A DNA stretch of 64,000 bases from a virus, in IMG/VR virus record IMGVR_UViG_3300022693_000799, positions 124,001 through 188,000 of that record; one strand, written 5' to 3'. This document shows positions 881 to 62,581 of this stretch, one piece after another. Position 1 is the first letter of the stretch. Every line of letters starts with the position of its first letter. The position numbers were made by a program, and so were the translations under genes. Under the pieces are notes generated by a model, which was given only the letters and a program-made list of their open reading frames with translations, made no database searches and was not told where the DNA came from.

Positions 881-910
881 GAAGGGTTAACGCCCTTCTT
901 TTTTTGCCGT
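881..910 (+). terminator. intrinsic terminator with GCCGT tail
   Basis: Stem GAAGGG / CCCTTC (881-886, 893-898) with a 6-nt loop is followed by seven T residues and then GCCGT. It lies 5 nt after the stop codon at 875. The GCCGT after the T run resembles the TTATGCCGT box seen after most other hairpins in the window. Confidence 0.85.
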
Positions 911-963
911 CAATGTTGTATTTAACAGCCCTTAGGGATCTTATAATACTAAGGAGAGTGACT

Positions 964-1443
964 ATGGGCGCTGAAGCTATAACGATGTTTAGGGGCGAAT
1001 ATTCGTTCTTAAGTAACTTTTACATATTAGAAACCCCGCTTCCTGAAAACGCTATATTTAAAACACGCTCACATCCCCTGTTTTACTTTGCGTCCTCTGA
1101 ACACGCTTACGTAGCCTGTAAGACTGATAATGAAGAGATTCGCAGATATATTGCAAGTCTATATAAACCCGGTGAAGTTAAACGCTATGGTCGATCTATC
1201 GACATCGTAGACAATTGGGATGATATCAGACAAGCATGTATGTGGGATGTGTTATATGCAAAATTCACCTTTAATCCCCATTTAAAAGAAAAGCTACTTG
1301 CTACTGGTGAGCGAGAACTAGTCGAAGGGAATTGGCATGGTGATAAATACTGGGGCGTGTGTATGCGTACCGGGGAAGGCAGCAACCATTTAGGACGTAT
1401 GCTCATGGAGCTGCGTGATTACTTTAGAGATATAGAGGAATAA
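964..1443 (+). CDS. NADAR domain protein (YbiA-like)
   Basis: This gene encodes 159 aa. A longer frame opens at 868 but would run through the terminator hairpin. AAGGAG at 951-956 precedes the ATG at 964, so I use 964. The protein covers a whole NADAR/YbiA domain: FRGEYSFLSNFY near residues 9-20, SSEHAYVACK in the first third, W-x3-R-x3-M and KFxxNPxL in the middle, then ATGxxxLVEGNxxGDxYWG and LGRMLMELR at the end. The family binds or cleaves ADP-ribose-type N-glycosides, and some members reverse guanine ADP-ribosylation of DNA, so a counter-defence role is possible. It lies 2 nt upstream of thymidylate synthase. The family is clear, but the substrate is not visible from sequence. Confidence 0.85.
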   Translation: MGAEAITMFRGEYSFLSNFYILETPLPENAIFKTRSHPLFYFASSEHAYVACKTDNEEIRRYIASLYKPGEVKRYGRSIDIVDNWDDIRQACMWDVLYAKFTFNPHLKEKLLATGERELVEGNWHGDKYWGVCMRTGEGSNHLGRMLMELRDYFRDIEE

Positions 1444-1445
1444 CC

Positions 1446-2324
1446 ATGATCTTACCAAAGAACTTACCGTCAGCTGAAGTACAGTATCTTGACCTTTTAC
1501 GTACAACCATGGAGCACGGTCACGACATTCGCAATGATCGTACTGGGATGGTCTGCCGCACAGTTACAGGTGCGGTGATGTATTACAATGTAGGAGGAGG
1601 TGAATTTCCTCTTACTACTACACGTAAAAGCTATTGGCGTAAGGCGATTAGAGAACTCTGCGGCTACTTCCGTGGGTTTAACAGCGCAGCGCAGTTTAGA
1701 GACCTAGGTACTGATAGCTGGGATATCAACGCTAATGAAACACGTGCGTGGTTAGATAACCCTCATCGTAAAGGTACGGATGACATTGGTTTGGTTTACG
1801 GAGGCGTAGCTAAACGCTGGCCAACGCATGACGGCCACACCATGGATCTATTTAAAAAGGTCTACACTAACCTTAAAGCAGGAGTAGATGATCGCGGCGA
1901 GATCGTTACGTTTTGGAATCCAGGTCTTTTTGAATTAGGTGCGCTAAGACCATGCATGTATAGCCACACCTTTACACTGTTAGGCGACACACTTCACATG
2001 ACGTCGACTCAGCGTAGCTCTGATGCGTTTTTGGGTGTGAATTGGAATATGATGCAGTGTTATGTCTTCTTAGCGGTGATGGCTAAGATAACAGGTCATA
2101 AGCCGGGTTGGGTTAAACATGACCATAATAACTTCCACATCTACGAAAACCATTTTGAACAGGTGACGGAACAGTTGAGTCGTGATCCCTATGAGATGCC
2201 TACAATAAAGTTAAGTGACCGTATCACGGATTGGGACTATGTGGTTAACCATATGACCGATGAAGACTTTGAGGTAATAGGCTATCAGTCACACCCACCT
2301 ATTTCAGGTAAAATGTCAGCATAA
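1446..2324 (+). CDS. thyA: thymidylate synthase (ThyA type)
   Basis: This gene encodes 292 aa, with AGAGGAATAACC before the ATG. ThyA converts dUMP to dTMP using methylene-tetrahydrofolate. Motifs in order are RxDRTG near residue 30, FPLTTTRK, VYG near residue 118, the active-site cysteine C170 in LRPCMYSHTF, QRSSDAFLGVNWN, and NFHIYENH near the C-terminal third. The Asn ending LGVNWN occupies the position that is Asn in synthases and Asp in dCMP hydroxymethylases, favouring a dUMP substrate. PCH is replaced by PCM and the usual PF before that Asn by NW, so a hydroxymethylase-type reaction on dUMP cannot be excluded. DHFR, dUTPase and dTMP kinase are encoded at 28-30 kb. Confidence 0.93.
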   Translation: MILPKNLPSAEVQYLDLLRTTMEHGHDIRNDRTGMVCRTVTGAVMYYNVGGGEFPLTTTRKSYWRKAIRELCGYFRGFNSAAQFRDLGTDSWDINANETRAWLDNPHRKGTDDIGLVYGGVAKRWPTHDGHTMDLFKKVYTNLKAGVDDRGEIVTFWNPGLFELGALRPCMYSHTFTLLGDTLHMTSTQRSSDAFLGVNWNMMQCYVFLAVMAKITGHKPGWVKHDHNNFHIYENHFEQVTEQLSRDPYEMPTIKLSDRITDWDYVVNHMTDEDFEVIGYQSHPPISGKMSA

Positions 2325-2333
2325 GGAACTTAC

Positions 2334-2540
2334 ATGATTGAAGAGATCATACAGACCCATGGCGATAAAAATGTAATTGCAAAAAGTGCAGATGGCAATC
2401 AGATAACTAAACTTGGCGTTGCTAAAGATGCCTTGAGTTTATTTGAGGATGCGCTATTTACCAGTTACTTCATTGAAAACAATCATGTGGTCATTATAGC
2501 CACAGATGATTTCTTTAATTTACAACCAGGATTAAGTTAG
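2334..2540 (+). CDS. small hypothetical protein
   Basis: This gene encodes 68 aa, with AAGGA before the ATG. It lies 9 nt after thymidylate synthase and 5 nt before dCTP deaminase, so it belongs to the same transcription unit. There are no membrane segments or recognisable motifs. Alternating hydrophobic residues near the C-terminus (NNHVVIIATDDFF) suggest a small alpha/beta fold. The function is unknown. Confidence 0.6.
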   Translation: MIEEIIQTHGDKNVIAKSADGNQITKLGVAKDALSLFEDALFTSYFIENNHVVIIATDDFFNLQPGLS

Positions 2541-2545
2541 TTGTT

Positions 2546-3163
2546 ATGTTGATACCAGATTACGCTATAGAGGCACTTTGCACGGGTGATTGTTCTATCG
2601 AAATTGATGGAACGATTGTCAATAATAAAAAGCGTCCTATGATTGAGCCATTCATCAATACGTCGGTGAAAGTTAACGACAACGATCAACGTATTCCTAG
2701 TTATGGCCTTAGTAGCTTTGGGTATGATGTCCGTCTTGCCCCTGAGTTTAAACTCTTTAGTAAACCTAACGATGGTCGCATTATCGATATCATGAACTTT
2801 GATGAGCGTGAGTTTGTTGAAGAAGTGAAGGCCGACAGTGTTATCCTGCCTCCAGGTGGGTTGTTGCTATCTCGTACAGTAGAATACTTCTCTATTCCAA
2901 ATAACGTCATGGGTACATGTTCTAATAAGAGCACATGGGCACGTATTGGTATGTTTAGTCTGGTAACACCGCTGGAGCCAGGTTGGGAAGGTAACTTAGT
3001 GGTGGAGATCACCAACTGTACTAATCTACCCATGCGTATATACGCAGGTGTGGGTATTGCGCAGATAGAGTTTAAAGCATCTAAGGTCCGCCCAAACGTC
3101 ACTTACGGTGATAGAGGGGGTAAGTACCAGGGTCAGACAGGTATTACCGGCAGTAAGCTATAA
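2546..3163 (+). CDS. dcd: dCTP deaminase
   Basis: This gene encodes 205 aa, close to the family length. It deaminates dCTP to dUTP, feeding dUMP to thymidylate synthase. SSFGYDVRLAPEF lies near residues 56-68, and SNKSTWARIGM replaces the usual GKSSLARLGL. It is followed by PLEPGWEGNLVVEITN, with the probable catalytic glutamate E154, then AGVGIAQIEF and a C-terminal YGDRGGKYQGQTG, all in trimeric dUTPase/DCD order. The Arg and Glu of the catalytic region are retained. It closes the unit that begins with the NADAR gene and is followed by a terminator. Some DCD proteins also cleave dUTP to dUMP, and which type this is cannot be told. Confidence 0.92.
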   Translation: MLIPDYAIEALCTGDCSIEIDGTIVNNKKRPMIEPFINTSVKVNDNDQRIPSYGLSSFGYDVRLAPEFKLFSKPNDGRIIDIMNFDEREFVEEVKADSVILPPGGLLLSRTVEYFSIPNNVMGTCSNKSTWARIGMFSLVTPLEPGWEGNLVVEITNCTNLPMRIYAGVGIAQIEFKASKVRPNVTYGDRGGKYQGQTGITGSKL

Positions 3164-3180
3164 TGACTAAATAGTTAACT

Positions 3181-3210
3181 AAAGTAGGGCTAGTCCCTAC
3201 TTTATGCCGT
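3181..3210 (+). terminator. hairpin plus TTATGCCGT box
   Basis: A perfect 9-bp stem AAAGTAGGG / CCCTACTTT (3181-3189, 3195-3203) with a 5-nt loop merges into TTATGCCGT at 3202-3210. It terminates the thyA-dcd unit and is followed 16 nt later by a promoter-like element. Confidence 0.8.
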
Positions 3211-3226
3211 ATCCGTAACATTTATA

Positions 3227-3239
3227 CCTCTATATTACC
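3227..3239 (+). promoter_or_regulatory. putative phiKZ-type early promoter
   Basis: ACCTCTATATTAC contains TATATTAC at 3231-3238, which matches the core I recall for phiKZ early promoters read by the virion RNA polymerase. It is intergenic and ends 57 nt before the next ATG. Related elements at 14340, 30650 and 35891 share the ACCT prefix. No transcript data are available. Confidence 0.5.
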
Positions 3240-3295
3240 TTAGTGAATAAATACAATAATGTATTATTCTTTAAACTAAATAAGGTATTAAGCCC

Positions 3296-4108
3296 ATGCA
3301 GATTACACAAACATTCACCCTGACCCGTACAGAAGTTGCTGCTTTTCGTGAACAGTCTAGTCAAGCCATTGACTTACTTAAACCACTAGCTGCAGAGCTG
3401 ATGGGTGAACAAAAGACTGAAGCCCAGGCAGCGAAGCTCCTAGAGCAGTTAAAAACCTCTATAACTGTTGATGTTAAAGTTGCAAATAAACTAAGCACGG
3501 TGGGTTACCTGCTACGTATAAAAGATGATGTTGAGGTCGTACTGACCGTTGATGTTGATGATGAAGTATTTACCGAGCTGATGGCCTACGGTGTAGATCT
3601 TCTAAAAGATTACATGGGTATCCTTAAAGCAATGATTAATCTAGTTGTTAATTTAAAAGAACTCCAAGCCGATAGTGAATTACGTTCTACCCACCGCCTC
3701 GTGGCGCTTAAAGAACGTATGGGTGATGATCAGACTAGCGTGAAGGTAAACGGTGATGAGATGGTAAATGAGTTAAAAGAAGCCCACGAAAAAGACGAGT
3801 ATGTTTATCCATACTGGACTGTATCTCAAGAAGATCAAGTCTCAGACGTGTTGTCTATCGATGCAGACAGTGATGTTAACGACATTCAGGCTCTATTACT
3901 AGAGCTTAGTTTGGAACGTCCAGATAAAGTCTTGACATTAAGTGCGTCAGCAAGAGTCAGGATGGTTGTTAAAAATGGTGAAGTAATTAAATCTTCTAAA
4001 TTTGAAGATTTTTACATTATGGATGAAGAAGTTAAAGAAGAAGCTAAGATCTTTAATAACCTCGTACCAGCTAGCCACGACGGCATGGGTAATTTTAAAA
4101 CCAAGTAA
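3296..4108 (+). CDS. hypothetical acidic protein
   Basis: This gene encodes 270 aa and starts 57 nt after a promoter-like element, so it may open a new transcription unit. The protein is rich in Asp, Glu and Val, with a helical first half and a beta-leaning second half (VLTLSASARVRMVVKNGEVI near residue 220). It has no Cys clusters, signal peptide or membrane segment. I do not recognise the family. A terminator follows 11 nt after the stop. Confidence 0.65.
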   Translation: MQITQTFTLTRTEVAAFREQSSQAIDLLKPLAAELMGEQKTEAQAAKLLEQLKTSITVDVKVANKLSTVGYLLRIKDDVEVVLTVDVDDEVFTELMAYGVDLLKDYMGILKAMINLVVNLKELQADSELRSTHRLVALKERMGDDQTSVKVNGDEMVNELKEAHEKDEYVYPYWTVSQEDQVSDVLSIDADSDVNDIQALLLELSLERPDKVLTLSASARVRMVVKNGEVIKSSKFEDFYIMDEEVKEEAKIFNNLVPASHDGMGNFKTK

Positions 4109-4119
4109 TTAACTCAGAC

Positions 4120-4147
4120 GGGTAGGTCCAAAATGACCTACCCTTTT
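4120..4147 (+). terminator. intrinsic terminator
   Basis: A perfect 9-bp stem GGGTAGGTC / GACCTACCC (4120-4128, 4135-4143) with a 6-nt loop is followed by TTTT. There is no TTATGCCGT box here. Confidence 0.8.
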
Positions 4148-4160
4148 AAAGGAGAGTTAA

Positions 4161-4532: not shown

Positions 4533-4542
4533 ACACCGTATC

Positions 4543-4558: not shown

Positions 4559-4587
4559 TTACTATTAATCTTTAAGGAAACATTAAC

Positions 4588-9685: not shown

Positions 9686-9740
9686 ACGGCATAAGCTAAC
9701 CACCTAGCCGTGAGGCCGGGTGGTTAGGCTTTTATGCGGC
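9686..9740. terminator. bidirectional terminator, element A
   Basis: Arms CTAACCACC (9696-9704) and GGTGGTTAG (9719-9727) enclose a 14-nt inner segment TAGCCGTGAGGCCG. The box is ACGGCATAA on the left (TTATGCCGT for - strand transcription) and TTATGCGGC at 9732-9740 on the right. It separates the convergent HDOD and helicase genes. A copy with the inner segment reversed lies at 53572-53620. Confidence 0.8.
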
Positions 9741-14171: not shown

Positions 14172-14278
14172 AACGCTTCATTAACAATCTGGTTAAAATG
14201 CGCTTGCGTATTACAAAACAAAAAAAGACAATGCCGGTTTAATTACCGTTTTAAATATCACTTAGTGTGGTTAAGTAA

Positions 14279-14314
14279 CACCTGGGGACTTAAGGTTCCT
14301 GGGTGTTATGCCGT
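14279..14314 (+). terminator. hairpin plus TTATGCCGT box
   Basis: An 11-bp stem with several G-U pairs (CACCTGGGGAC / GTTCCTGGGTG, loop TTAAG) is followed directly by TTATGCCGT at 14306-14314. A second TATGCCGT copy lies at 14316-14323. Confidence 0.65.
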
Positions 14315-14339
14315 CTATGCCGTCTCGACGATACTTCAG

Positions 14340-14350
14340 ACCTACATTAC
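14340..14350 (+). promoter_or_regulatory. putative phiKZ-type promoter
   Basis: ACCTACATTAC, with TACATTAC at 14343-14350, differs by one base from the phiKZ early core TATATTAC. It is intergenic, lies 25 nt after a terminator box, and ends 56 nt before the next ATG. Confidence 0.45.
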
Positions 14351-15628: not shown

Positions 15629-17245
15629 ATGGATCAATATTTATTTACACACATACACGAGCAACATGTGCCTAAGTTCAATCCCCTTTTGGCGGAAGGA
15701 TTGGTCGTAGAGCAGATGCGTGGAGTCGAGGAATACATCGACCATGTGTGGAAATGTGCAGCAAGAAGCTTTCCAGAGGGATTTACGTACGATGGAGAGT
15801 ACAAACGAGCGACACCAGAGCAGCAGTATAACTACATGACGCGCAAGCGTTCATCGCGTGCTGAGTTTAATCTAGCACCTAGTGACTTCTACGCTGTTCA
15901 ATTTAACTTCAGCTATCAAGGCCAGAAGTTATTCCCACGTCTGTTACAACTTCCGTTTGTTGGACCAGGTGGTTTAATACGTGTAAATGGTTCTAAGTAT
16001 GTTATCAATCCTGTCATGGTTGATAATCTTTTCTCTGTTGATGATGGTAAACTATTCGTTGCGTTAACACGTGACAAACTTACCTTTGAGAGGGTCACGC
16101 ACAACCTGGTCATCGATGGTGTAAAAGAAACCTTAAGTATCCCATGGAGTACTATTTACCATTTACGCCAGAAAGATAAAAACTCTAAGATTATCTACAT
16201 GGGTGGACTCCGCCTAAATATGGTAAGTACCTTAGGTCATTATCTGTTTTGTAAATACGGGGTAACGGAAACCTTCAAACGTTTCTGCGGTATGGATGTA
16301 GTGGTGGGTGATCGTAACACGATTAACGAGCAAACCCACCCTAAGTCTGAATGGATGATTGTAGAGAGCTTACATTTACAGCCTATTAGCGTTAAGGGTA
16401 AGGGCTACAGACCTACTCAAATACGTGTAGCGTGTAAACGTGATCAACGCAGTCAACTATCAGACAACCTACTTGCAACCTTCTTCTACTTAGCAGATCA
16501 TTTTACTCAGCGTATTCGTCCGGAGTACATTGACGATACACGTTTATGGCGTGTGTTGATGGGACATGTTATCTTCAAGAGTAAAGTGAATGAAGGAAGG
16601 CTCTTAGAGGACATCGACGCTCACCTGGTGAGTCTAGATTACTACATTGATGGATTGGTACAGATGAACCTTGAGAAGGAAGGGGTAGAGTGTAAAGACA
16701 TTTACGCACTATTTGCTTATATCATCGAAACCATGAATGAGATTATAGTCACAACGGACGTTTCTAACCTATACGGTAAGAAGCTAACAACATTGAGATA
16801 TATATTACTAGATGTGATAAAGGCTATATTCAATTTCACCTTCAAGCTAAACTCCAATAAAAATAAAACACTAACGAGTAAAGACATCGAGAAACTAATG
16901 GATAAGTATCTTAAGTTTGATACCATCCGTAAGATTAACACCGGCCATGGTGAAGTAAGTTCACTATCTACCGCAGGTGATAACCTTATGTTTAAGATGA
17001 CTAACAAAGTAGTGCCTCAGACCGATGCGACTGGCTCTCGTAACGGTACGAAGACTAAACCATCTAGGTTACTGCATGCCTCGCTAGCAGAAGTATGTAG
17101 TTATGGTAATCAGCCTAGTTCCTGCCCAACAGGCCATGGTCAGATTAACCCTTACTTAAATGTAACACCTGATGGTGAGATTATACCTAATCCAGAGTTT
17201 GCCGATTTGATTGACTCAGTACAAGCTAAAATTGCACGCACGTAA
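15629..17245 (+). CDS. RNA polymerase beta subunit, N-terminal part (phiKZ gp123-like)
   Basis: This gene encodes 538 aa, with CGGAGGATG before the ATG. Jumbo phages of the phiKZ type encode split multisubunit RNA polymerases. LLQLPFVGPGGLIRVNGSKYVINPVMVDNLF near residues 109-140 resembles the beta protrusion region, where cellular beta has a GxFIINGxERV motif. The C-terminal third includes KKLTTLRYILLDVIKAIF and a basic RNGTKTKPSRLLHASLAEV. Its length and position downstream of the capsid gene match phiKZ gp123 of the non-virion polymerase as I recall it. The catalytic beta C-terminal half and both beta-prime parts are not in this window. Assignment is by motif and synteny. Structure prediction against beta would test it. 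Confidence 0.7.
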   Translation: MDQYLFTHIHEQHVPKFNPLLAEGLVVEQMRGVEEYIDHVWKCAARSFPEGFTYDGEYKRATPEQQYNYMTRKRSSRAEFNLAPSDFYAVQFNFSYQGQKLFPRLLQLPFVGPGGLIRVNGSKYVINPVMVDNLFSVDDGKLFVALTRDKLTFERVTHNLVIDGVKETLSIPWSTIYHLRQKDKNSKIIYMGGLRLNMVSTLGHYLFCKYGVTETFKRFCGMDVVVGDRNTINEQTHPKSEWMIVESLHLQPISVKGKGYRPTQIRVACKRDQRSQLSDNLLATFFYLADHFTQRIRPEYIDDTRLWRVLMGHVIFKSKVNEGRLLEDIDAHLVSLDYYIDGLVQMNLEKEGVECKDIYALFAYIIETMNEIIVTTDVSNLYGKKLTTLRYILLDVIKAIFNFTFKLNSNKNKTLTSKDIEKLMDKYLKFDTIRKINTGHGEVSSLSTAGDNLMFKMTNKVVPQTDATGSRNGTKTKPSRLLHASLAEVCSYGNQPSSCPTGHGQINPYLNVTPDGEIIPNPEFADLIDSVQAKIART

Positions 17246-19731: not shown

Positions 19732-19777
19732 ACGGCATAAAGTAGGGTAGGTGATCCTACCCTACAACTTATGCGTT
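19732..19777. terminator. bidirectional terminator with inverted boxes
   Basis: A perfect 10-bp stem GTAGGGTAGG / CCTACCCTAC (19742-19751, 19756-19765) with a TGAT loop is flanked by ACGGCATAA on the left and TTATGCGTT on the right. It separates a convergent pair: the small basic protein (+) and the portal (-). Confidence 0.85.
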
Positions 19778-26694: not shown

Positions 26695-26725
26695 AGCCAG
26701 GGTACTGTCCCTGGCTTTATGCCGT
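26695..26725 (+). terminator. hairpin plus TTATGCCGT box
   Basis: A perfect 8-bp stem AGCCAGGG / CCCTGGCT (26695-26702, 26709-26716) is followed directly by TTATGCCGT at 26717-26725. It lies 4 nt after a stop codon. Confidence 0.85.
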
Positions 26726-31066: not shown

Positions 31067-31118
31067 ACTGTTTATAGGAGGGGTCAGAAGACTCTTCTTA
31101 TGAACAGTGTTATGCTGT
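31067..31118 (+). terminator. long hairpin plus box before lysis genes
   Basis: Two 19-nt arms, 31067-31085 and 31090-31108, pair along their whole length with four G-U pairs around an AGAA loop. TTATGCTGT, one base off the common box, follows at 31110-31118, then a T run at 31124-31130. It is the longest hairpin I found in the window. Confidence 0.7.
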
Positions 31119-33002: not shown

Positions 33003-33010
33003 ACTATAAA

Positions 33011-33041
33011 GAGGATGCGTAATAGCATCCTCTTATGCCGT
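33011..33041 (+). terminator. hairpin plus TTATGCCGT box
   Basis: A perfect 8-bp stem GAGGATGC / GCATCCTC (33011-33018, 33025-33032) with a GTAATA loop is followed directly by TTATGCCGT at 33033-33041. Confidence 0.85.
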
Positions 33042-33284: not shown

Positions 33285-34241
33285 ATGTTTATAATTGTTA
33301 TTAAGCAAGAGTTTAGAAATCAGATTCAAACGCGTTACATCACAACAGATCAGCTAAAGACCACCGCTAATAAAAAGCACCCTTCTATGGTGCAGCTTGA
33401 GATAGATGGTAACAATGTTAATATCTTAGATCTTGACGGTGATGTGAACATTAGCATCTACACGGCTACCGGGATGAAGTTAAATGAAATAACCTACACG
33501 GATAATACTTCATCTGGACTACCAGAATCAATCCACTTCTCACCGGATGATCCTTATCTAGATAAACCATTTGAAGGTAAAGACCAACCCTTCCCTGAAC
33601 CGCTTAAATACATAGAGACACTTCAAGAGACATTAAACTCATGTCTGTTAAGTCGTTGGGATGAACCCCATGCATTCTTTAGGGGGTCTTATTCCCTAGA
33701 TGTACCTATGTTGCGTAAAATAGTTGCTTCAGTATTTATCGAAGGTGTGGATAGAACCAGTCAGCATTTAACTACAGCGAAGTGTCTATTAGCTAACGTG
33801 ACGAAACTGATTGAGCTACTGCAAGATATAAAAGAAGGAAGGCGAGAAAGTCACTTAATATTAAACGATGGATACTGGATCAACCCCGCCATACATGCTA
33901 GGGTTAAATTCCCACCGTGGTTAACTCACAATCTTGGTACGCTTATTAAGTTAGAGCAGGATAAATTATCGGCAATTACTTCTGATAAGTTAAACGGCAT
34001 TAGTGTATATACGGCTGATATAGAGTTTATCAAACGTGCATCTTTATCTGATAGAGATCGCATCTTCTATGGCGGTATGTGGTTTATTGACAAAACTAGC
34101 AATTTTAATGATAACACGTTTAAGTCAATAGTAGACGATCATCAAAAAGCAGTAATGGCTGATAATGATAAAATTCTAACACAGTTAATTGAGTTAGATG
34201 AGATTAAAACTAATTTGAAATCTTACATCAACAACAATTAA
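33285..34241 (+). CDS. hypothetical protein
   Basis: This gene encodes 318 aa, with AAGGACAG before the ATG. The upstream gap contains ACATTACATTATTA, possibly a promoter. The N-terminal ~80 residues look beta-rich (MVQLEIDGNNVNILDLDGDV) and the rest is helical and charged. There are no cysteine pairs, membrane segments or known motif. It is convergent with the hydrolase gene across a bidirectional terminator. Confidence 0.6.
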   Translation: MFIIVIKQEFRNQIQTRYITTDQLKTTANKKHPSMVQLEIDGNNVNILDLDGDVNISIYTATGMKLNEITYTDNTSSGLPESIHFSPDDPYLDKPFEGKDQPFPEPLKYIETLQETLNSCLLSRWDEPHAFFRGSYSLDVPMLRKIVASVFIEGVDRTSQHLTTAKCLLANVTKLIELLQDIKEGRRESHLILNDGYWINPAIHARVKFPPWLTHNLGTLIKLEQDKLSAITSDKLNGISVYTADIEFIKRASLSDRDRIFYGGMWFIDKTSNFNDNTFKSIVDDHQKAVMADNDKILTQLIELDEIKTNLKSYINNN

Positions 34242-34272
34242 CGGCATAGGTGAGAGGGTTATCCCTCTCACC
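34241..34272. terminator. bidirectional terminator
   Basis: A perfect 10-bp stem GGTGAGAGGG / CCCTCTCACC (34249-34258, 34263-34272) with a TTAT loop is followed by TCTTT on the + side. On the - side it is followed by TATGCCGT, and this box shares the last base of the upstream stop codon. Confidence 0.85.
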
Positions 34273-34275
34273 TCT

Positions 34276-35184: not shown

Positions 35185-35220
35185 ACGGCATAAATGGGAC
35201 CCTATAAAAGAGCCCCATTT
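35185..35220 (-). terminator. hairpin plus box, minus-strand reading
   Basis: Stem AAATGGG / CCCATTT (35192-35198, 35214-35220) has a 15-nt loop that can fold further. Read on the - strand it is followed by TTATGCCGT (complement of 35185-35193). It terminates the fibre-like gene at 35232. Confidence 0.7.
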
Positions 35221-35934: not shown

Positions 35935-37071
35935 GTGGGAAGAGGTATAGATTTAACGGGACGGGAGTTCGGTAAATTAACCGTAGTAGATCAGGCTCCT
36001 AATAAGGAAGGTCAGAGGGGTAATTGGTGGAATTGCTTATGTGATTGTGGTAATGCGAAAGTTGCTTCGGCTAAAAGTCTAAATGCAGGCGATACCCAAA
36101 GCTGCGGTTGTCTAAATAAGAACGATCTAATAGGTAAGGTCTATGGGAGGTTAACCGTCAAAGCAGAGGGGGTTGAAAAGAAAGGTGATAAACGCACATG
36201 GGTTTGTGAATGTAGTTGTGGATCAACTACTACTGTTACGACGAGTGATTTAGTAACCGGTCATACGCGCAGTTGTGGATGTTTACAGAAGGAGCGGGCG
36301 AAAGAAGCGAATAAGACGCACGGCTATTCACGTAGACGCCATCCCCTCTACGCACGTTGGCTAGGTATGAGAAATCGATGCAATAATCCAAATGACGATT
36401 ATTACGACAACTATGGAGGTAAAGGTGTAAAAGTCTGTAAGCGATGGGACTCATTTACTAACTTCTTAGAAGATATGGGCGAGTGTCCGGAAGGTCATAC
36501 TCTGGACCGTCGCGACAACGATGGCGACTATACGCCTGAGAATTGTAGATGGGCAAGCTCATCCGAGCAGGCCATGAATAAAAGCACGACGGCTATGGTT
36601 GAATACAATGGAGAACTTATAAAAAGGAGAGAGTTAGCCAAACGTTTTGGCATTGATCCGGATAGACTACGTCAACGGCTAGAGATGGGATGGTCTGTTG
36701 AAAAAGCATTAACTGTCGAAATACCACCCCAGGTAAAATGGAGAGTGGTTGTTGGAATAAACATAGTAACAAGGACAATATATTTTAGCAACAAGCTATC
36801 CAGGTTCGCTAAAGATCATAATCTTAATCTTAATATTCTTCGTAACAATGCCACCCGCAGGGGATTAGCAGAAGGAGAGTGGGCGGTTAAACGTATCGAG
36901 GATGATACACCTTGGAATGATTTCAGGGGATGTAGCGGGATACCAGAGGACGTTATCTTAAAGCAAGCTGATGAACCGGATATTATCTTTTCTAACGCGA
37001 GAGAGGCTTACAGGTACCTTGAGCGGAGTTCTCTGTTAGATAAGGAGTATACATTAAAAGTATTTGAATAA
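35935..37071 (+). CDS. HNH homing endonuclease-like protein
   Basis: This gene encodes 378 aa with a GTG start at 35935 and AAAAGGTGG just upstream. An in-frame GTG at 35926 lies within that site. Two similar zinc modules open the protein (residues ~7-58 and ~60-115), each with G-x-x-(F/Y)-G-(K/R)-L-T-V, W-x-C-x-C-x-C-G and SCGCL. Next comes YARWLGMRNRCNNP, GGKGVKVCKRW, TLDRRDNDGDYTPENCRW and SSSEQAMNK, the signature of free-standing phage HNH endonucleases. The C-terminal part has helix-turn-helix elements (RRELAKRFGIDPDRLRQRL and FSNKLSRFAKDHNLNLNIL). It is on the opposite strand from the fibre genes on both sides, with its own promoter candidate, as expected for a mobile intruder. Confidence 0.82.
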   Translation: MGRGIDLTGREFGKLTVVDQAPNKEGQRGNWWNCLCDCGNAKVASAKSLNAGDTQSCGCLNKNDLIGKVYGRLTVKAEGVEKKGDKRTWVCECSCGSTTTVTTSDLVTGHTRSCGCLQKERAKEANKTHGYSRRRHPLYARWLGMRNRCNNPNDDYYDNYGGKGVKVCKRWDSFTNFLEDMGECPEGHTLDRRDNDGDYTPENCRWASSSEQAMNKSTTAMVEYNGELIKRRELAKRFGIDPDRLRQRLEMGWSVEKALTVEIPPQVKWRVVVGINIVTRTIYFSNKLSRFAKDHNLNLNILRNNATRRGLAEGEWAVKRIEDDTPWNDFRGCSGIPEDVILKQADEPDIIFSNAREAYRYLERSSLLDKEYTLKVFE

Positions 37072-37106
37072 CGGCATAAAACCATGGGGCTTTACAACCC
37101 CATGGT
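37071..37106. terminator. bidirectional terminator
   Basis: A perfect 9-bp stem ACCATGGGG / CCCCATGGT (37081-37089, 37098-37106) with an 8-nt loop is present. On the - strand it is followed by TTTATGCCGT. On the + side a T run (TTTCTTTTTTT) lies about 15 nt further on. It separates the convergent HNH and tail fibre genes. Confidence 0.85.
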
Positions 37107-37155: not shown

Positions 37156-38148
37156 TTAAAATGAACGACCATAATCAAGATTAGCTGCTAAGTCAGCTAC
37201 TAGGCCGTTAGCATGGCTGATTGCTTGTAGACGTGCATCGTTAACTGCTTTAGATGAAGCTACGTTAGTTTCAGATGCAGAGTCAACTGCGCTAGAGATA
37301 GCAGACTTGTCTACTTTAAGTGCAAGACCAGCGTCAGCGTATGCTTTAGCGTCAGTCAATGCAAGTAGAATTGCATTTGAAGAAGCAACGTTTGTTGAGC
37401 TGTTAGACGTGATTGAATCAGAGATAGACGTTTTGTCTACTTTGGTATCCAAACCATCGTTAAGCTGAGTGATGCTTGCTTTAGTTGCAAGTGAAGACGT
37501 AATAGCAGCGATATCGCTGTCGTTGTCTGTCAATGCAGCAGCAAGTTCTTGAAGTGTATCAAGCGCGGCTGGTGGAGCGCCGCCAAGGATGTCAGACTTA
37601 ACTGCATCAGCGTAAGCAATCGCTGCTGCTTCAGCATCAACCGCACGTTGGTGAGCAGTATACGCAGCCATAGATGATGCGTATTGAGTAGAGTTTTGTT
37701 CTACAACTGAGTCGCTGATACCGTAGTTTTCAACGTTACCTAGACCAACGTCAGCTTTAGTTAGGTTAGAAGTGTCTTGTTGCGCTTGAGCAATGTTAGA
37801 CTCAGCAGTTTCAAGACGTTGACCGATTTTCAACAGGGTGTCTAAGTCAGCAGCTAGTGTGCCACCTTTAAGACCATTGATTTGGCTATCGGTGTAGGTA
37901 TTAGCTTGAGCGATCGCGTTAGCTTGTGCAGCGGCGATGTCAGCTGTGTAGTCACGACCTAGCGTGATTACATTACCTTCGTGGTCTTTAGTGAAGATCT
38001 TGCGATCTACTAAGTTAAGTGCAATTGCACCTTCTTCCAAGTCAGCAGCTAGCGGCGCTGCGCCTGAGGTGATTGAACGGTCAAATTGAATCTGACCAAG
38101 ATCAATGGCTACGTTTTCCGCGCCTGAAGTCGAGTTGACTGTACTCAT
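37156..38148 (-). CDS. tail fibre protein with Phage_fiber_2-type repeats
   Basis: This gene encodes 330 aa. The N-terminal ~75 residues carry the docking module shared with 35232 and 47635 (SGAAPLAADLEEGAIALNLV, then FTKDHEGNVITLG). The middle holds GGAPPAALDTLQELAAAL, a very common tail fibre element. Two or three degenerate repeats of the pattern S-x-S-x-x-x-S-S-x-x-x-A-S-S-x-A (such as ISDSITSNSSTNVASSNAI) match the Phage_fiber_2 style. It ends in a short helix rather than a receptor-binding tip, so the adhesive part may be supplied by neighbouring proteins. Confidence 0.75.
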   Translation of the reverse strand: MSTVNSTSGAENVAIDLGQIQFDRSITSGAAPLAADLEEGAIALNLVDRKIFTKDHEGNVITLGRDYTADIAAAQANAIAQANTYTDSQINGLKGGTLAADLDTLLKIGQRLETAESNIAQAQQDTSNLTKADVGLGNVENYGISDSVVEQNSTQYASSMAAYTAHQRAVDAEAAAIAYADAVKSDILGGAPPAALDTLQELAAALTDNDSDIAAITSSLATKASITQLNDGLDTKVDKTSISDSITSNSSTNVASSNAILLALTDAKAYADAGLALKVDKSAISSAVDSASETNVASSKAVNDARLQAISHANGLVADLAANLDYGRSF

Positions 38149-41763: not shown

Positions 41764-41781
41764 GAACTTTACTCCAAGTTA

Positions 41782-53571: not shown

Positions 53572-53620
53572 ACGGCATAAGCTAACCACCCGGCCTCACG
53601 GCTAGGTGGTTAGGCTTTTA
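53572..53620. terminator. bidirectional terminator, element B
   Basis: Arms CTAACCACC (53582-53590) and GGTGGTTAG (53605-53613), with left box ACGGCATAA, are the same as in element A at 9686. The 14-nt inner segment CGGCCTCACGGCTA is the exact reverse complement of that in A. It separates the convergent 52372 and SbcC-like genes. On the right, CTTTTATACTGC replaces the TTATGCGG box. Confidence 0.8.
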
Positions 53621-56703: not shown

Positions 56704-57717
56704 ATGATGACCTTACAAACTCGATTACGCGTAATCTCTATTGGCATAGTTGCTGAGAATAAAGAACGCGATAACCCCGAAGTCTTAATAACCCCAATAG
56801 AAATACTTCCTTTTCAATTAGGAGAGGTTAAAGAAGACAAAACAACGTTCTTTAGTAAAGGGCTTGATGGTTTTGGTAAAGAATGGTCAGCACAAGTAGA
56901 TGTAGATAAAACGATCAAAGCCACATGGTTAAGTCTAGAGACTAACCGTGAAACGCCCCCTAACCTTATGCGTGGCGAGCAAGTGTTATTGTGGCAATAT
57001 GCTGACACTGATAAATACTTCTACACTAGCATGGGGAGAGACGATCCACTGCGACGTTTAGAAACTGTTGTCTATCGTTGGTCGAATGAGCCAGATGTCA
57101 CTAAAGACATAGAGGCGCTGACTGATGAAAACAGCTATCGCCTTACTATCTCCACGCATGATTCTAAGATTGAGTTAGTTACTAATAAAAACAACGGTGA
57201 GCCTTTTGCTTACCAATGTCTATTAGATACTAAGAACGGTAAATTTACCTTTACCGACGATGTTGATAACTATCTATTCCTAGACAGCGCTAATACTCAC
57301 ATCAAAGCCCATAACAAAGACACCACGTTCTTTGAACTTAATAAGAAAGACATCAATGGCTACGCGCCACAAGACATGACCTTTACGGTTGACCGCGATG
57401 TCTCTATTACAGTGGGCCGACACATGACCTTTGATATTGGTGGTAACTACAGTACCACGGTAGGGGGTAGTGAAACTGTAGATGTTAAAGGGTCTATCTC
57501 TATTAAATCAGGAGGTCCTCTCACTGTTAATAACCCGTCTACTAAATACACCACACCCAATACTGAATTTACAGGTAATGTAAAAATAGGGGGTGCGCTA
57601 AATGTAAGTGGTGGTATCACTGGCGAGGGTACCATCAAAGGTAAGAGCGGTGACTTTAAAGACTTTAAAGCCTCCAATCCTATCAATGCTAAAACCGTCT
57701 ATGCTCCTGATGGCTAA
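56704..57717 (+). CDS. gp5/VgrG-like baseplate spike protein
   Basis: This gene encodes 337 aa, with CGAGGTAA before the ATG. The N-terminal half is a mixed domain with an OB-like beginning (LRVISIGIVAENKERDNPEV). From about residue 215 the sequence turns into short repeats, TVDRDVSITVGRHMTFDIGG, YSTTVGGSETVDVKGSISIK and NVKIGGALNVSGG, the pattern of intertwined beta-helices in T4 gp5, VgrG and phiKZ spike proteins. It would form the trimeric tip that pierces the outer membrane. No lysozyme domain or PAAR cap is seen. Confidence 0.75.
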   Translation: MMTLQTRLRVISIGIVAENKERDNPEVLITPIEILPFQLGEVKEDKTTFFSKGLDGFGKEWSAQVDVDKTIKATWLSLETNRETPPNLMRGEQVLLWQYADTDKYFYTSMGRDDPLRRLETVVYRWSNEPDVTKDIEALTDENSYRLTISTHDSKIELVTNKNNGEPFAYQCLLDTKNGKFTFTDDVDNYLFLDSANTHIKAHNKDTTFFELNKKDINGYAPQDMTFTVDRDVSITVGRHMTFDIGGNYSTTVGGSETVDVKGSISIKSGGPLTVNNPSTKYTTPNTEFTGNVKIGGALNVSGGITGEGTIKGKSGDFKDFKASNPINAKTVYAPDG

Positions 57718-57770
57718 CGGCATAACCTACCTCTACCCGTCTAAAGGTAGAGGTAGGGTCTTTATGCGTC
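57717..57770. terminator. bidirectional terminator with inverted boxes
   Basis: A perfect 12-bp stem CCTACCTCTACC / GGTAGAGGTAGG (57726-57737, 57746-57757) is flanked by ACGGCATAA on the left and TTATGCGTC on the right. It separates the convergent spike (+) and baseplate (-) genes. The left box shares the last base of the spike stop codon. Confidence 0.85.
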
Positions 57771-58388: not shown

Positions 58389-59682
58389 TATAATACTCCT
58401 TGAAACTTTGTTTCTGTACTACTAGATAGTTAACGTCATTATACGAACTGATAAGGAAATCTACCCCATCGCGTGTAATGCGTGAGATGTCGGTATCTAG
58501 CTGTGTGAATTCATTGACTGTCTCAGCAGCGGTTAACATTCTATGAAAGAGGATAACCCAATCCTGTGTTTCAGGCGATAGACGATTAAAGTCTGTTTCT
58601 TGTGCCGATAGGGCGGTGTAGTCTGGGAACTTTTCTTCAAATTTGAAAATCCCATCACTGTTACCTATTTCACCAACCGCTGTGAAAGCAATGGTTTTAT
58701 AAGCAGCATGGCTAACGGTCAAGTTAGCATCAACGTGCTCAAGTGGATAGTTAGCTAACGCTGGTAAAGACAATCCCATTGCTTCCTGGTAGTTAACCGA
58801 TGGCGAATAGGTACCTGCAAGTCCCGTTTGCTCTTCAATGGCCACACGATGCCACATAGGGACGATAATGAACTCTGTCGGCCTAAATAAGGTAGGGAAT
58901 ACATCGTACCATTCTACTGAATCGTAATCGCTATCTTCTAAGATAGATTTTGCAATGGCATCAGCAATGGCATCGGGGTTGTTACCTGCTATACCATATT
59001 GAACGACGTACCATGTTAACTTTTTCGTTGTTGACGAGTGTTTATCATTCCACGTCACTTCATATGGCGTTAGTGCGGTATAAGGTGCGTCTTGGGATAT
59101 CTCATTAGCCATCCCCAACATACGTGGTAGGTCTTCTGTCAACACATCCGATATCTCAGTATAAGGACGATGTAAATCGTTAAGCTCCTCAACTGGTTTA
59201 ATCGGTATTAGTGCATATTCGTCATATTGACGAATAAACGTACGATTAGAAAACCACAACGTAAAGGTCGTACCGTTTGCTGTCCAGTTAATATAACTGG
59301 GATAGTAGTAACCTGCATCAGAGGCTACCATGGCTCCTGATACAAACAAACCAACGGAAATAGACGGATAGTCGTTACCTATGAATTGGTTAAGTACTGC
59401 GTTGTTTGACGTAAGTTCACCATTTCTCGCCTTGGTGTCGATATAATCGATTAAGTTTAATAGGACATTGCCTACTTCATTACCTACGTCCATCTGCTCG
59501 CCGTTGTCGTCCAATGTAGACATCAACGCAATGCGCAAGTTAGGATAGGTGCTAGAACTGTATTCACGGTTATCTGGTGAATAGGAACGGGCGTGTGATG
59601 ACATTTCACCAACCGGGGAGAGGGTATTCTTATCATTGTTTATCAAATCATTGATAATGACAAACCCTTTAACTGTACTCAT
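58366..59682 (-). CDS. tail/baseplate structural protein
   Basis: This gene encodes 438 aa, with GGAG upstream of the ATG. The protein is acidic and aromatic-rich, with alternating helices and strands (MSSHARSYSPDNREYSSSTY near residue 27, MGLSLPALANYPLEHVDANL later). It has no enzymatic motif. It reads into the 57762 gene with a 23-nt overlap, and both look like parts of one complex near the spike. The family is unknown to me. Confidence 0.6.
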   Translation of the reverse strand: MSTVKGFVIINDLINNDKNTLSPVGEMSSHARSYSPDNREYSSSTYPNLRIALMSTLDDNGEQMDVGNEVGNVLLNLIDYIDTKARNGELTSNNAVLNQFIGNDYPSISVGLFVSGAMVASDAGYYYPSYINWTANGTTFTLWFSNRTFIRQYDEYALIPIKPVEELNDLHRPYTEISDVLTEDLPRMLGMANEISQDAPYTALTPYEVTWNDKHSSTTKKLTWYVVQYGIAGNNPDAIADAIAKSILEDSDYDSVEWYDVFPTLFRPTEFIIVPMWHRVAIEEQTGLAGTYSPSVNYQEAMGLSLPALANYPLEHVDANLTVSHAAYKTIAFTAVGEIGNSDGIFKFEEKFPDYTALSAQETDFNRLSPETQDWVILFHRMLTAAETVNEFTQLDTDISRITRDGVDFLISSYNDVNYLVVQKQSFKEYYNEQLDQS

Positions 59683-59736
59683 TATAAATCGACTCCAAAT
59701 TAATCATCGTATTCAACTAAGGTAGGGAGCAACACA

Positions 59737-60225
59737 TTGACACTATTCATTGCTTTTATTAAAGCCCTGCCCCAATTTCTACCGTTTCTACTCACATTAT
59801 TAAAGGGGGAGAAGGCCAACATGTCCGGACATAAAGATCCCTCTAAGGGTCGAATGCTAATGCTTCTACTGGTTGTATCGCTAGTAGGAACAGGCATCCT
59901 GTATTTTGATGCGCGTGGTATTGAACTTGATCTTGCGGGTAAAGAAAAAGAAATAGACGCCCTTAATAAAAAGGTCACGTCATTAAACCAAGAGATAGAT
60001 CAAATGAAAAGGGACGGAGTACCCAGTCCTTCTCAAAATGCTATATTGCAAAAGCATGCTAACGACGCTATTCAATTTAAAGCAACGATCACTCATTTAG
60101 AAACACGCCTTGCTCAATGTAAGGCTAACGCCGCTACGGTCACACCACCTCCTATTGTTCAACCCTCAACGGGAGCCAATAGGCGTAGTATCTTGGATAA
60201 ACTAAATCAAATAGGGAAAGACTAA
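59737..60225 (+). CDS. i-spanin-like coiled-coil membrane protein
   Basis: This gene encodes 162 aa from a TTG at 59737 (AGGGAG 7 nt upstream). An ATG at 59821 with GGAGAAGG also fits and would give a classic single-membrane-segment i-spanin. After that ATG come a basic stretch, a hydrophobic helix (LMLLLVVSLVGTGILYF), then a coiled coil (KEKEIDALNKKVTSLNQEID) and a Pro-rich region. With the TTG start there is one more hydrophobic helix (FIKALPQFLPFLLTLL) at the front. It abuts a lipoprotein gene, so the pair mirrors the spanins at 31547/31881. Confidence 0.55.
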   Translation: MTLFIAFIKALPQFLPFLLTLLKGEKANMSGHKDPSKGRMLMLLLVVSLVGTGILYFDARGIELDLAGKEKEIDALNKKVTSLNQEIDQMKRDGVPSPSQNAILQKHANDAIQFKATITHLETRLAQCKANAATVTPPPIVQPSTGANRRSILDKLNQIGKD

Positions 60226-60695
60226 TGCTTCGTCCTATCATCATTGCAACCACCATATTGTTGGGAAGTTGTGTTAGCTCTAACCAGCCAGAAACCCCAC
60301 CTCAGAATCATCCACTCGTAGATCCAATAGATCCACCCCCTACGATGGATACCTTTATATGGAACTGGGACGCTGTTGATCAAGAGCATCCTGCTAAGCG
60401 CTACCTCAACGCGTTGAAGCGCTACCATGAGCGTCTAGAGCTTTACATCGTGCAGCTAGAGCGTGCATTGGAAGATAAAAGACACGAGGGTCCCTGTAGT
60501 CGTTTTATACCTTTTCCTGTTCCAGCTATTAAACCCTTACCGGAGTCCGTAGACTTATCTACGTATAGTAACGAGGAAGAGGCATTTAATGCATTTGGGG
60601 AATATACACGTGAGCTTTACAACTATGCTTACAATCTCCGTGAGATTTACTTAGACGATGTTAAGCGTTTTAATCAACAGTGTGAAGTTAAGTAG
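60225..60695 (+). CDS. o-spanin-like lipoprotein
   Basis: This gene encodes 156 aa. A signal peptide ends in ILLGSC, with lipid-attachment Cys16. A Pro-rich stretch (PETPPQNHPLVDPIDPPP) follows, then a long helical part (YLNALKRYHERLELYIVQLE) and a Pro-rich break before another helix. The ATG overlaps the last base of the coiled-coil gene (TAATG). Signal type, Pro-rich linker and partner order are those of an outer-membrane spanin. It does not look like a copy of the 31881 protein. Confidence 0.6.
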   Translation: MLRPIIIATTILLGSCVSSNQPETPPQNHPLVDPIDPPPTMDTFIWNWDAVDQEHPAKRYLNALKRYHERLELYIVQLERALEDKRHEGPCSRFIPFPVPAIKPLPESVDLSTYSNEEEAFNAFGEYTRELYNYAYNLREIYLDDVKRFNQQCEVK

Positions 60696-60759
60696 GGGTT
60701 TACAGGCCTGGCTTATTTTTATAGAGACTTAAATTAAAAGTAATAATGGAATGTAACCG

Positions 60760-62118
60760 ATGAGTAAACAAGAACCATCTTTAAGCGCCACGTTTTATAG
60801 CGACGGTGGGTGCAGAGGCCATAGCAGCGGTAAAGGTTACGCAGGATGGGGCTACCATGGCGAGATAGGCGACTATGTCTACGACGGTTGGGGTAGTATC
60901 AAAGAGTTAACAACTAACAATGTAGCTGAACTAGCGGCTGTAAAAGAAGTTGTTGATATCGCCAATCAAAACGATGTCAATGAACTTCTGGTTATCTCTG
61001 ACTCACGTTATGTTGTTGACGGCATCAATGACCGTTATGAGAAATGGGAAGCTAACAACTGGTTACGTCACGATGGTGAGCCAGTTAAGAATCGGGATTA
61101 TTGGGAAGCATTAGCTAACGCCCGAGCGGAATTCACAGGTAAAGGTAATCAGATTACTTTTAAATGGACAAGAGCACACGTCGGTACCAAAGGCAATGAG
61201 ATTGCTGATAAGAACGCAACTAAAGGCGTTATGTTATCTACCAACGGCCACCATGTCTCTTTTCATGAATGTGTAGAGAAAGCAAAATACGGCAAAGATA
61301 AAGTTCCACCGTATAACCGACTCTTTAATCATAACTTCTGGTATTTCAACACTAACACCATTAATCAAACCGAAACTGGTCATCATGTTTATTATTGTGG
61401 TAATCATGAGATTATCGGCAAGCCTGAATCTGATGCAGGTCATAGCGTTCTTTATTTAAAAGAACCTGATAGTGTGCTAGAGAAGTTACGTGATCACCAG
61501 AACCGTTATGTGGAAGAAGGCGAGCAGTTAATGTTCACTGGACACTTAACCGATATCTTCTCGTCTAAGAATTACGGTGAACTAGTTAACAATGGTACAA
61601 TTCATACCAGTCGTAAACCTAAGACGCGTAACATTCTTACTTTTAACAAACAACCGCTGACTAGTGAAGTAAGGCCTGTAGGTCGTAGCTTTTACTTGCT
61701 TGATGTAATGAGTAACTTAGAAGAACGTTTGAAGAAAGTTATTGATGGTGAACTGCCTGATAAATGGCGTTTGACTGATGTTACTGACAAATTCTATAGC
61801 CGTGTAACTAAAGGCAAAGGTAAAACCGAACGTGAAGTCTTTGAGTTTAGTAAAGAGCTTCCTACCGGCATTAAGTCTATTAACCTAGATGTTGAACACG
61901 GCGTGGGCCTTACGACAGGATTCACTGAAGTAACATTAACATTCGGCATTGATATCCCATCAAGGAATGCGTTGGCTGCACTATCGAAAGAGATTAAACG
62001 CATTAGTATCTTAACTTGGCCAGCATCTAAGACATCCTTTAACTATGGATTCATTTTAGAAACTGAGGACGATATTGGTATTTGGGCCTGCGGCTATTCC
62101 AATACGCGTATCATCTAA
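60760..62118 (+). CDS. RNase HI with long C-terminal extension
   Basis: This gene encodes 452 aa. Residues ~8-155 form a complete type 1 RNase H: D15 in YSDGG, E57 in NNVAELAAV, D81 in VISDSRYVV, H140 in TRAHVGTKGNEIAD and D150 in the same motif. It would remove RNA primers and RNA-DNA hybrids. Residues ~160-452 are an extension about twice the size of the enzyme, with no motif I know (HHVYYCGNHEIIGKP, RPVGRSFYLLDVMSNLEERL, AALSKEIKRISILTWPASK). Normal RNase HI ends near 155 aa. The extension may bind DNA, a helicase or SSB. Confidence 0.85.
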   Translation: MSKQEPSLSATFYSDGGCRGHSSGKGYAGWGYHGEIGDYVYDGWGSIKELTTNNVAELAAVKEVVDIANQNDVNELLVISDSRYVVDGINDRYEKWEANNWLRHDGEPVKNRDYWEALANARAEFTGKGNQITFKWTRAHVGTKGNEIADKNATKGVMLSTNGHHVSFHECVEKAKYGKDKVPPYNRLFNHNFWYFNTNTINQTETGHHVYYCGNHEIIGKPESDAGHSVLYLKEPDSVLEKLRDHQNRYVEEGEQLMFTGHLTDIFSSKNYGELVNNGTIHTSRKPKTRNILTFNKQPLTSEVRPVGRSFYLLDVMSNLEERLKKVIDGELPDKWRLTDVTDKFYSRVTKGKGKTEREVFEFSKELPTGIKSINLDVEHGVGLTTGFTEVTLTFGIDIPSRNALAALSKEIKRISILTWPASKTSFNYGFILETEDDIGIWACGYSNTRII

Positions 62119-62131
62119 CAGGAGGTGACGT

Positions 62132-62563
62132 ATGTCTGTATCCACCGCATTATGCAAACGCTTCATGCCGGATATGATGAAACGTCTTTTCTACATTACC
62201 ACATTGTTTACCTTTCTGGTTCGTAGGAGTCATCGAGAAGTTAACTATAGTCGTCTTTATGGTGTCTGTTTAGATTGGACACCTAATGATGAAACGTTTA
62301 ATTTACCGGCTTTGTTTACTGAGACAATATGGAGAGATACTCCATTAGGCCAAAAGATATCTGAAGAAGTAGTAACGCATAACCAGATATCTATGGATGA
62401 CATAGAACGCTCAGTACCAGATTGGCTTAAGTACGGCTACAATAGCGACCTCATGCAGGAAGACACGTTGCTGGTGTACCGTGTAGTATTAATGGAGTTA
62501 AATGATCCGTCGGTTAGGCGGGTGAGTGATGCGGAATTTGAGAGGTATATTGCAGGGCATTGA
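62132..62563 (+). CDS. hypothetical protein
   Basis: This gene encodes 143 aa, with AGGAGGTGACGT before the ATG, a very strong ribosome site. A moderately hydrophobic patch (MKRLFYITTLFTFLVRR) near residues 17-33 could be a membrane-associated helix. The rest is acidic and helical. I recognise no family. Its stop codon lies inside a terminator hairpin. Confidence 0.6.
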   Translation: MSVSTALCKRFMPDMMKRLFYITTLFTFLVRRSHREVNYSRLYGVCLDWTPNDETFNLPALFTETIWRDTPLGQKISEEVVTHNQISMDDIERSVPDWLKYGYNSDLMQEDTLLVYRVVLMELNDPSVRRVSDAEFERYIAGH

Positions 62564-62581
62564 TGCCCTGCTTTATGCCGT
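62552..62581 (+). terminator. hairpin plus TTATGCCGT box
   Basis: A perfect 9-bp stem GCAGGGCAT / ATGCCCTGC (62552-62560, 62563-62571) with a 2-nt loop, which probably opens slightly, runs into TTATGCCGT at 62573-62581. The stop codon of the upstream gene lies in the loop. Confidence 0.8.

Follow-up and report, generated by a model that had tools for sequence, protein, structure and literature searches.

The window analysed here, 64,000 bases long, comprises bases 124,001–188,000 of the 190,650-base contig IMGVR_UViG_3300022693_000799, and the element under study is a hairpin at the 3' ends of genes that is followed directly by a nine-base box, TTATGCCGT. The contig was assigned to a phiKZ-type jumbo phage (phiKZ-like class, Chimalliviridae), called the window phage below, by matches of its major head protein (phrog_3231), DnaB-like helicase (phrog_3213) and gp123-type RNA polymerase (RNAP) subunit (phrog_2943), together with a gp123 tree. 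The gene for the gp123-type subunit lies near the capsid gene in the window. The head protein is 29–40% identical in amino acid sequence to the best 20 of 202 matching named records, and its relatives at 85–100% identity are six IMG/VR loci, one of them partial; TTATGCCGT is present in the contigs of all six. The first 25,000 window bases had no near-identical match among phage records, and no Rfam family matched the window at or above its gathering score.

A preliminary description of this DNA had placed the hairpin and the box, or a near variant, at 14 coordinates. All 14 were confirmed, each with a hairpin that abuts the box on its 5' side, on the strand given; the + strand coordinates had marked hairpin starts (within 3 bases) and the − strand coordinates box ends. 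The sites are the following.

879–910, + strand: hairpin 879–900 and variant box TTTTGCCGT at 902–910.
3180–3210, + strand: hairpin 3180–3204, its stem extending into the TTA, and exact box 3202–3210.
9686–9738, both strands: bidirectional terminator between convergent genes; − strand exact box 9694–9686, hairpin 9696–9727, + strand GCTTTTATGCG at 9728–9738.
14276–14323, + strand: hairpin 14276–14308 behind the major capsid gene, exact box 14306–14314, then CTATGCCGT at 14315–14323.
19732–19775, both strands: bidirectional terminator; − strand exact box 19740–19732, hairpin 19742–19765, + strand AACTTATGCG at 19766–19775.
26695–26725, + strand: hairpin 26695–26716 and exact box 26717–26725.
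31067–31118, + strand: hairpin 31067–31108 and variant box TTATGCTGT at 31110–31118.
33009–33041, + strand: hairpin 33009–33034 and exact box 33033–33041.
34241–34273, − strand: hairpin 34273–34248 and variant box CTATGCCGT at 34249–34241; convergent pair.
35185–35220, − strand: hairpin 35220–35192 and exact box 35193–35185.
37071–37106, − strand: hairpin 37106–37081 and exact box 37079–37071; convergent pair.
53572–53613, − strand: hairpin 53613–53582 and exact box 53580–53572; convergent pair, opposite box decayed.
57717–57768, both strands: bidirectional terminator; − strand exact box 57725–57717, hairpin 57726–57757, + strand GTCTTTATGCG at 57758–57768.
62552–62581, + strand: hairpin 62552–62571, overlapping the stop of the upstream gene, and exact box 62573–62581.

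Eleven of the 14 boxes match TTATGCCGT exactly, and three carry one mismatch (TTTTGCCGT at 902, TTATGCTGT at 31110 and CTATGCCGT at 34249–34241). The hairpins are G+C-rich and stable, with predicted energies of −11.5 to −25.6 kcal/mol, and all lie at gene 3' ends. A T-run and TTTTGCCGT are both present at the 879 site.

Over the whole contig, exact TTATGCCGT occurs 26 times against about 1.7 expected from dinucleotide content, and it is the top-ranked over-represented noncoding 9-mer, 22 of the 26 copies being wholly noncoding. Its pairing with a hairpin is strict. A stem of score at least 17 ends beside the box in 26/26 cases (at least 20 in 24/26), compared with 1.1% when 20,000 positions were drawn at random and 4.4% for 1,251 drawn from noncoding DNA; a set of 400 permuted words, occurring 614 times, had such a stem in 8 cases. 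The recurrent architecture proposed in the preliminary description held against this permuted control. In a test that allowed positions from −9 to +11, all 26 best stems ended between −3 and +2 relative to the box (2 bases before to 3 inside). An even spread of the box through coding DNA is excluded, as our gene caller placed 25 of the 26 exact copies in noncoding DNA, and a same-strand stop lies −15 to 160 bases away from 23 of them. One-mismatch words number 38 in the contig; a hairpin accompanies 16, and of the 22 without one, 21 are coding and the other is the latter half of a doubled box. In the window alone, TTATGCCGT with up to one mismatch shows a modest excess (24 matches vs 14.9 expected), because nine of the matches with one mismatch are coding and lack a hairpin. 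The signal lies in the pairing of box and hairpin, word frequency alone being modest in the window.

A short fixed word dispersed genome-wide could also be a DNA-level site, for packaging, recombination or a function like that of uptake sequences, which merely adjoins hairpins; ATGCCGTC, which resembles the Neisseria DNA uptake sequence, was counted in favour of this explanation. The hairpin 5' of every exact box and the own-strand stop before 23 of the 26 speak against it, as does the absence of any Neisseria phage among the named phages scanned, and we give such a site almost no credence.

The association was also recovered starting from the hairpins. Noncoding hairpins of fixed score near same-strand stops were listed without using the box, those scoring below 20, at least 70% coding, or outside −20 to 100 of a same-strand stop being dropped before counting, and four-letter words were ranked in the last three stem bases and the next eight bases. 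TATG follows 40 of the 64 terminal hairpins of the window phage (1.8 expected), and the top words are TGCC, TATG, GCCG and ATGC. The association is oriented, the mirror words GTAT and CATA occurring behind 3 and 0 of the same hairpins. With a tail window one base longer, the 64 tails comprise 48 with TATG, 5 that are T-rich and 11 that are neither. A U-tract directly behind the stem is not what was found in the window phage, where the boxed tails read TTATGCCGT.

Comparison of orthologous gene ends between the window phage and its relatives G002, G003 and G004 revealed ends at which the hairpin is wholly different and the box is retained. Behind the gene at 37156–38148, three unrelated stems (one in the window phage, one in G003 and G002, one in G004) are each followed by TATGCCGT. 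Behind the gene at 2546–3163 (the 3180 site), G003 and G002 have an unrelated hairpin and the same box, and TGCCGTCTATGCCG of the capsid-gene site (14276–14323) is retained in all three relatives. G003 has a hairpin with TATGCC at 10 of the 14 window sites; at 26695 and 62552 the box letters are present in it, though the stem picker took another stem. Neither G003 nor G002 retains the box of the 879 site, the gene before it being only 46% identical there. The 33009 site was not seen in these two phages (upstream gene 52% identical), and TATGCCGT is retained there in G004.

The distribution of the box was then scored by the hairpin-first procedure in 25 other jumbo-phage samples and T4, many genomes being sampled partly (25–240 kb each, in pieces). 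In the close relatives G003 and G004, TATG follows 41/60 and 12/20 terminal hairpins. Elsewhere it follows 35/55 in Ea35-70 and RAY combined (1.1 expected), 21/37 in FLC9 (0.4), 18/32 in pEa54 (0.6), 39/76 in LucasX (1.1), 10/23 in Moabite (0.3), 23/54 in 201phi2-1 (1.4), 22/53 in OBP (1.5), 42/108 in phiKZ (4.1), 15/40 in Goslar (0.9), 8/22 in Sureiya (0.7), 3/10 in FBKp24 (0.2), 5/24 in Ea277G (0.2), 5/24 in RisingSun (0.4), 8/40 in pVa-21 (1.1), 13/66 in EL (1.1), 3/26 in D6 (0.5) and 5/64 in PCH45 (1.2). Lack of conservation in related phages is thereby excluded. Outside the boxed set, no TATG excess was found in AR9 (2/81, 3.3 expected), phiR1-37 (1/83) or T4 (2/22). The letters behind TATG in the window phage are C, C, G and T at frequencies of 0.97, 0.88, 0.85 and 0.85; phiKZ, 201phi2-1, LucasX, pEa54 and FLC9 have broadly YYGT (FLC9 with A first in one third), Ea35-70 has YYG with a mixed fourth letter, OBP mostly T T T, and EL is loose. 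The family consensus is TTATGYYGT. On the gp123 tree, the 11 phages labelled strong box users need 5 changes, compared with 8.6 on average for shuffled labels (5/500 as low); the trait is therefore clustered, yet it has been gained or lost several times. The hosts of boxed phages, as named, include Pseudomonas, Xanthomonas, Erwinia, Burkholderia and Escherichia, a range that the machinery of a single host does not explain.

Gene-end hairpins are also what ordinary bacterial-type intrinsic terminators would supply, the letters of the tail being incidental, and the public LucasX record annotates some of them as rho-independent terminators (ARNold). This explanation is highly improbable given a nine-letter word found 26 times against 1.7 expected, a related word in many relatives, and the absence of the TATG excess from T4, AR9 and phiR1-37.

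Several other tail types were observed during the scan. In EL (L075–L084), GTAT stands behind 18/66 hairpins vs 13/66 for TATG and is perhaps a drifted box. In Serratia phage PCH45 (L149–L154, L191–L195), tails are of two types, either T-runs or boxes like TTGTGCTGT/TTTTGCTGT, the latter looking like a variant of TTATGYYGT. In phiKZ (L023, L055–L066), several + strand hairpins carry another recurrent tail, TTTATTTCG-like, which may represent the terminator class of another polymerase.

At the six convergent sites of the window, the preliminary description had the hairpin flanked by inverted boxes. This holds for three (9686–9738, 19732–19775 and 57717–57768); at 53572 the opposite box has decayed to TTATAC, and 34241 and 37071 have none. 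The three bidirectional sites are asymmetric, with one box 0–1 bases off the stem and the opposite TTATGCG 3–4 bases off and lacking CCGT, which suggests a strong and a weak direction. The doubled box TTATGCCGT-CTATGCCGT (14306–14323) behind the major capsid gene is possibly a stronger stop. Near-identical bidirectional cassettes of two kinds, one with a CTAACCACC...GGTGGTTAG hairpin (9696–9727, 53582–53613) and one with a CCTACCTCTACC... hairpin (57726–57757), have four dispersed contig copies each and are present in G003 too, as if copied or converted between loci. Boxless − strand hairpins stand between co-directional genes at about 38227, 41781, 44695 and 50441 and look like leader or intercistronic hairpins rather than terminators; those at 41781 and 44695, beside large phrog_14489 proteins, have TAATTAAACT before them and a GGAG ribosome-site-like word after.

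The core of the box, TATG on the non-template strand, is identical to the late-promoter motif of phiKZ, as the preliminary description had correctly stated (PMC4666361). The late promoter of the phiKZ non-virion RNAP (nvRNAP) requires TATG at −3 to +1, the G being +1 (PMC4666361, PMC12809450), and some early-promoter-like motifs lie a short distance 3' of + strand boxes. The box might on these grounds be a late promoter placed right behind a terminator, the next unit starting there, as the preliminary description had offered among its readings. However, 6 of the 14 window boxes face a convergent gene. In a pool of 13 phage samples, which includes SPN3US, PCH45 and pVa-21 with their little or no box use, TATG follows 164/321 hairpins with a convergent neighbour and 130/373 with a same-strand neighbour; as facing a convergent gene does not make the box any rarer, a promoter role is disfavoured. 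The YYGT is conserved here, whereas the sequence 3' of TATG in phiKZ late promoters is reported to be unconserved (PMC4666361). The sole TATG between phiKZ genes 118 and 119, presumably that of P119L, lacks YYGT, and adjacent stems score at most 6. In the window phage, TATG is missing from both strands in 5 of 16 intergenic regions between divergent genes. Taken with these observations, a late promoter is a very unlikely identity for the box. TATG as the window phage's own late promoter was considered separately: divergent regions hold 27 copies vs 11.7 expected over the whole genome, an excess that is not established because these regions are A+T-rich and 5/16 lack the word.

We consider it probable that the hairpin, with a fixed box where a U-tract would otherwise stand, is a terminator of phiKZ-type jumbo phages and that it is read by the phage's own multisubunit RNAPs. 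A phage-polymerase-specific terminator had been one of the readings in the preliminary description, and it is the one best supported by position, orientation, bidirectional use and conservation across hosts but not in T4, AR9 or phiR1-37. From the sequence, we infer three things: transcription ends at the boxes, the box works by making the polymerase pause, and the enzyme that reads it is the phage's own, be it the non-virion RNAP, the virion RNAP or both. The nascent RNA would fold into the G+C-rich hairpin, the next nine bases being the fixed word at the place of the U-tract. With the polymerase some 7–9 bases past the stem, the box would lie within the RNA–DNA hybrid and the melted bubble, where the phage's multisubunit RNAP would recognise it and pause; the hairpin would close after the pause and the transcript would be released. 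Between convergent genes, a single hairpin with a box on each side would serve both directions. Known pause sites have a pyrimidine followed by G, as the box offers.

The fixed letters could instead be read by an RNA-binding or RNA-cleaving factor, the box then being an mRNA 3' tag (for processing, end protection or export from the phage nucleus) beside a stabilising hairpin; a box bound by a phage factor was also among the readings in the preliminary description. The box is fixed in sequence and would form the 3' terminus of the RNA, early and other units use the same letters, and nucleus-forming phages must export mRNA, according to published work. The stem, however, ends within −3 to +2 of the box in 26/26 exact cases, the place of a terminating polymerase's hybrid, and the tail would need to be transcribed and then ended by another signal. 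We regard this explanation as unlikely.

One gene in the window encodes a candidate reader of the box, judged by homology.

15629–17245, + strand: homologue of phiKZ gp123, the beta-like subunit of the nvRNAP (phrog_2943 'polymerase', E 1.6e-164).

Its product was recovered by a profile search seeded with phiKZ gp123. The early-promoter-like motif reads CCTAYATTA in the window phage and TATATTAC in phiKZ, a TATATTAC-type motif being among the predicted promoters tabulated in PMC7058600. By plain word search, its noncoding copies lie on the + strand in 15/15 cases in the window phage and 24/25 in phiKZ; these counts are fairer than those of the early-promoter profile, which was trained on + strand noncoding sites and gives a biased strand count. 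A CCTAYATTAC-like motif, which resembles a predicted EL promoter (PMC7058600), stands a short distance 3' of a boxed terminator at several places, e.g. near 14341 and 35892 (+). A division in which T-rich tails mark early (virion RNAP) units and boxes mark late ones was rejected for the window phage, which showed no difference. In phiKZ, the ratio of TATG to T-rich tails is 6:12 in early units and 34:19 in the rest (p = 0.03; + strand alone, p = 0.25), and the tails comprise 18 TATG, 4 T-rich and 4 neither on the − strand and 24, 32 and 26 on the + strand. The nvRNAP as the main reader of the box is compatible with the data.

Residues of the phiKZ gp123 pocket that holds TATG are altered in SPN3US, EarlPhillipIV, BONAISHI, pVa-21, AR9 and phiR1-37, none of which is a strong box user (highest pVa-21, 8/40). 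D6, CF8, Aphrodite1 and phiKp_32 retain much of the pocket, yet have little or no box. Over 23 phages, with phiKZ, AR9 and phiR1-37 left out, similarity of the 14 pocket residues correlates with box use at rho 0.57, compared with 0.61 for whole gp123 and 0.40 ± 0.20 for random sets of 14 gp123 columns, 20.5% of which are as high as the pocket. Among the first 15 phages, those with the box had seemed to keep the pocket, and SPN3US and pVa-21 to have lost it, a pattern broken by the phages added later.

A number of results weigh against a terminator read by the phage's own polymerases. As random column sets often do as well as the pocket, and the whole protein does too, the gp123 test adds nothing beyond relatedness. 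The ratio of TATG to T-rich tails in the window phage, 16:1 in early units and 32:4 in the others, does not single out a reader polymerase. No TATG excess was found in BONAISHI (2/27 hairpins), Aphrodite1 (2/28), phiKp_32 (2/29), CF8 (1/24), SPN3US (1/65) or EarlPhillipIV (0/27), and a polymerase of this type thus does not generally require the box. T-runs stand behind 33/65 hairpins in SPN3US, 15/27 in EarlPhillipIV and, for the remaining four phages, 4 to 9 out of 24 to 29 each, and T-rich tails follow 36/108 hairpins in phiKZ itself. TATG also follows hairpins wholly inside called genes, with a much smaller excess, 9/66 in the window phage (1.9 expected) and 18/205 in LucasX (3.0 expected), with a few other phages alike; these could be gene-calling errors or internal stops. 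Finally, both the hairpin score and the gene caller were built for this analysis, and positions are taken as independent in the expected counts.

A more specific version of the polymerase-read terminator, built by analogy and in our judgement rather doubtful, has one pocket serving both transcript ends. The TATG pocket of the nvRNAP, which is part of the enzyme and unable to dissociate from it, would recapture the non-template TATG during elongation, the hairpin behind it would turn this into termination, and YYGT would distinguish terminator from promoter. Termination of this kind would be specific to the polymerase, the host enzyme failing to recognise the signal. If the TATG promoter pocket does read the box, initiation and termination would be tied to a single recognition site.

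How the multisubunit RNAPs of jumbo phages stop appears to be a question still unsettled in print. A 2022 paper describes their initiation, elongation and termination as structurally undefined, initiation having been addressed since, and words starting with 'terminat' were not found in the main text of two reviews (2025, 2026). A hairpin with this box was not found described in the literature searched, which was covered in part (including PMC7618050, PMC9209446, PMC10612078, PMC7824862, PMC13282480 and PMC12908238) and did not extend to the key 2014 phiKZ transcription paper. The distribution of related words suggests that many nucleus-forming giant phages share a sequence-specific stop signal for their own RNAPs. 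A box in the place of the U-tract is a directly testable termination substrate, possibly a terminator to which the phage enzyme alone responds, and it allows transcription units to be predicted in jumbo phage genomes, gp123 being matched by 271 phage records.

Among known systems, AR9 (PBS1-like) is also a phage with two multisubunit RNAPs, and strong termination at predicted terminators has been reported for it from RNA-seq (PMC5312081). Its late promoters are AACA-N6-TA/G (PMC5312081), and its hairpins, unlike those of the window phage, show no TATG excess. Non-template TATG is common to the box and the phiKZ nvRNAP late promoter, from which the box differs in the hairpin before it, the conserved YYGT after it, its gene-end position and its frequent facing of a convergent gene. 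In sigma-dependent pausing of bacterial RNAP, the part of the enzyme that recognises promoters binds a promoter-like element during elongation, and the polymerase pauses. This is the analogy for a single pocket reading both promoter and box, but it is known as an initiation-proximal pause, not as a terminator. The bacterial intrinsic (rho-independent) terminator likewise has a G+C-rich hairpin just past the stop, used in one direction or both, with a tail at the U-tract place where the nine bases of the box sit. Its tail consists of U's, whereas here the tail is a fixed TTATGCCGT (TTATGYYGT in the family) with a G+C-rich second half.

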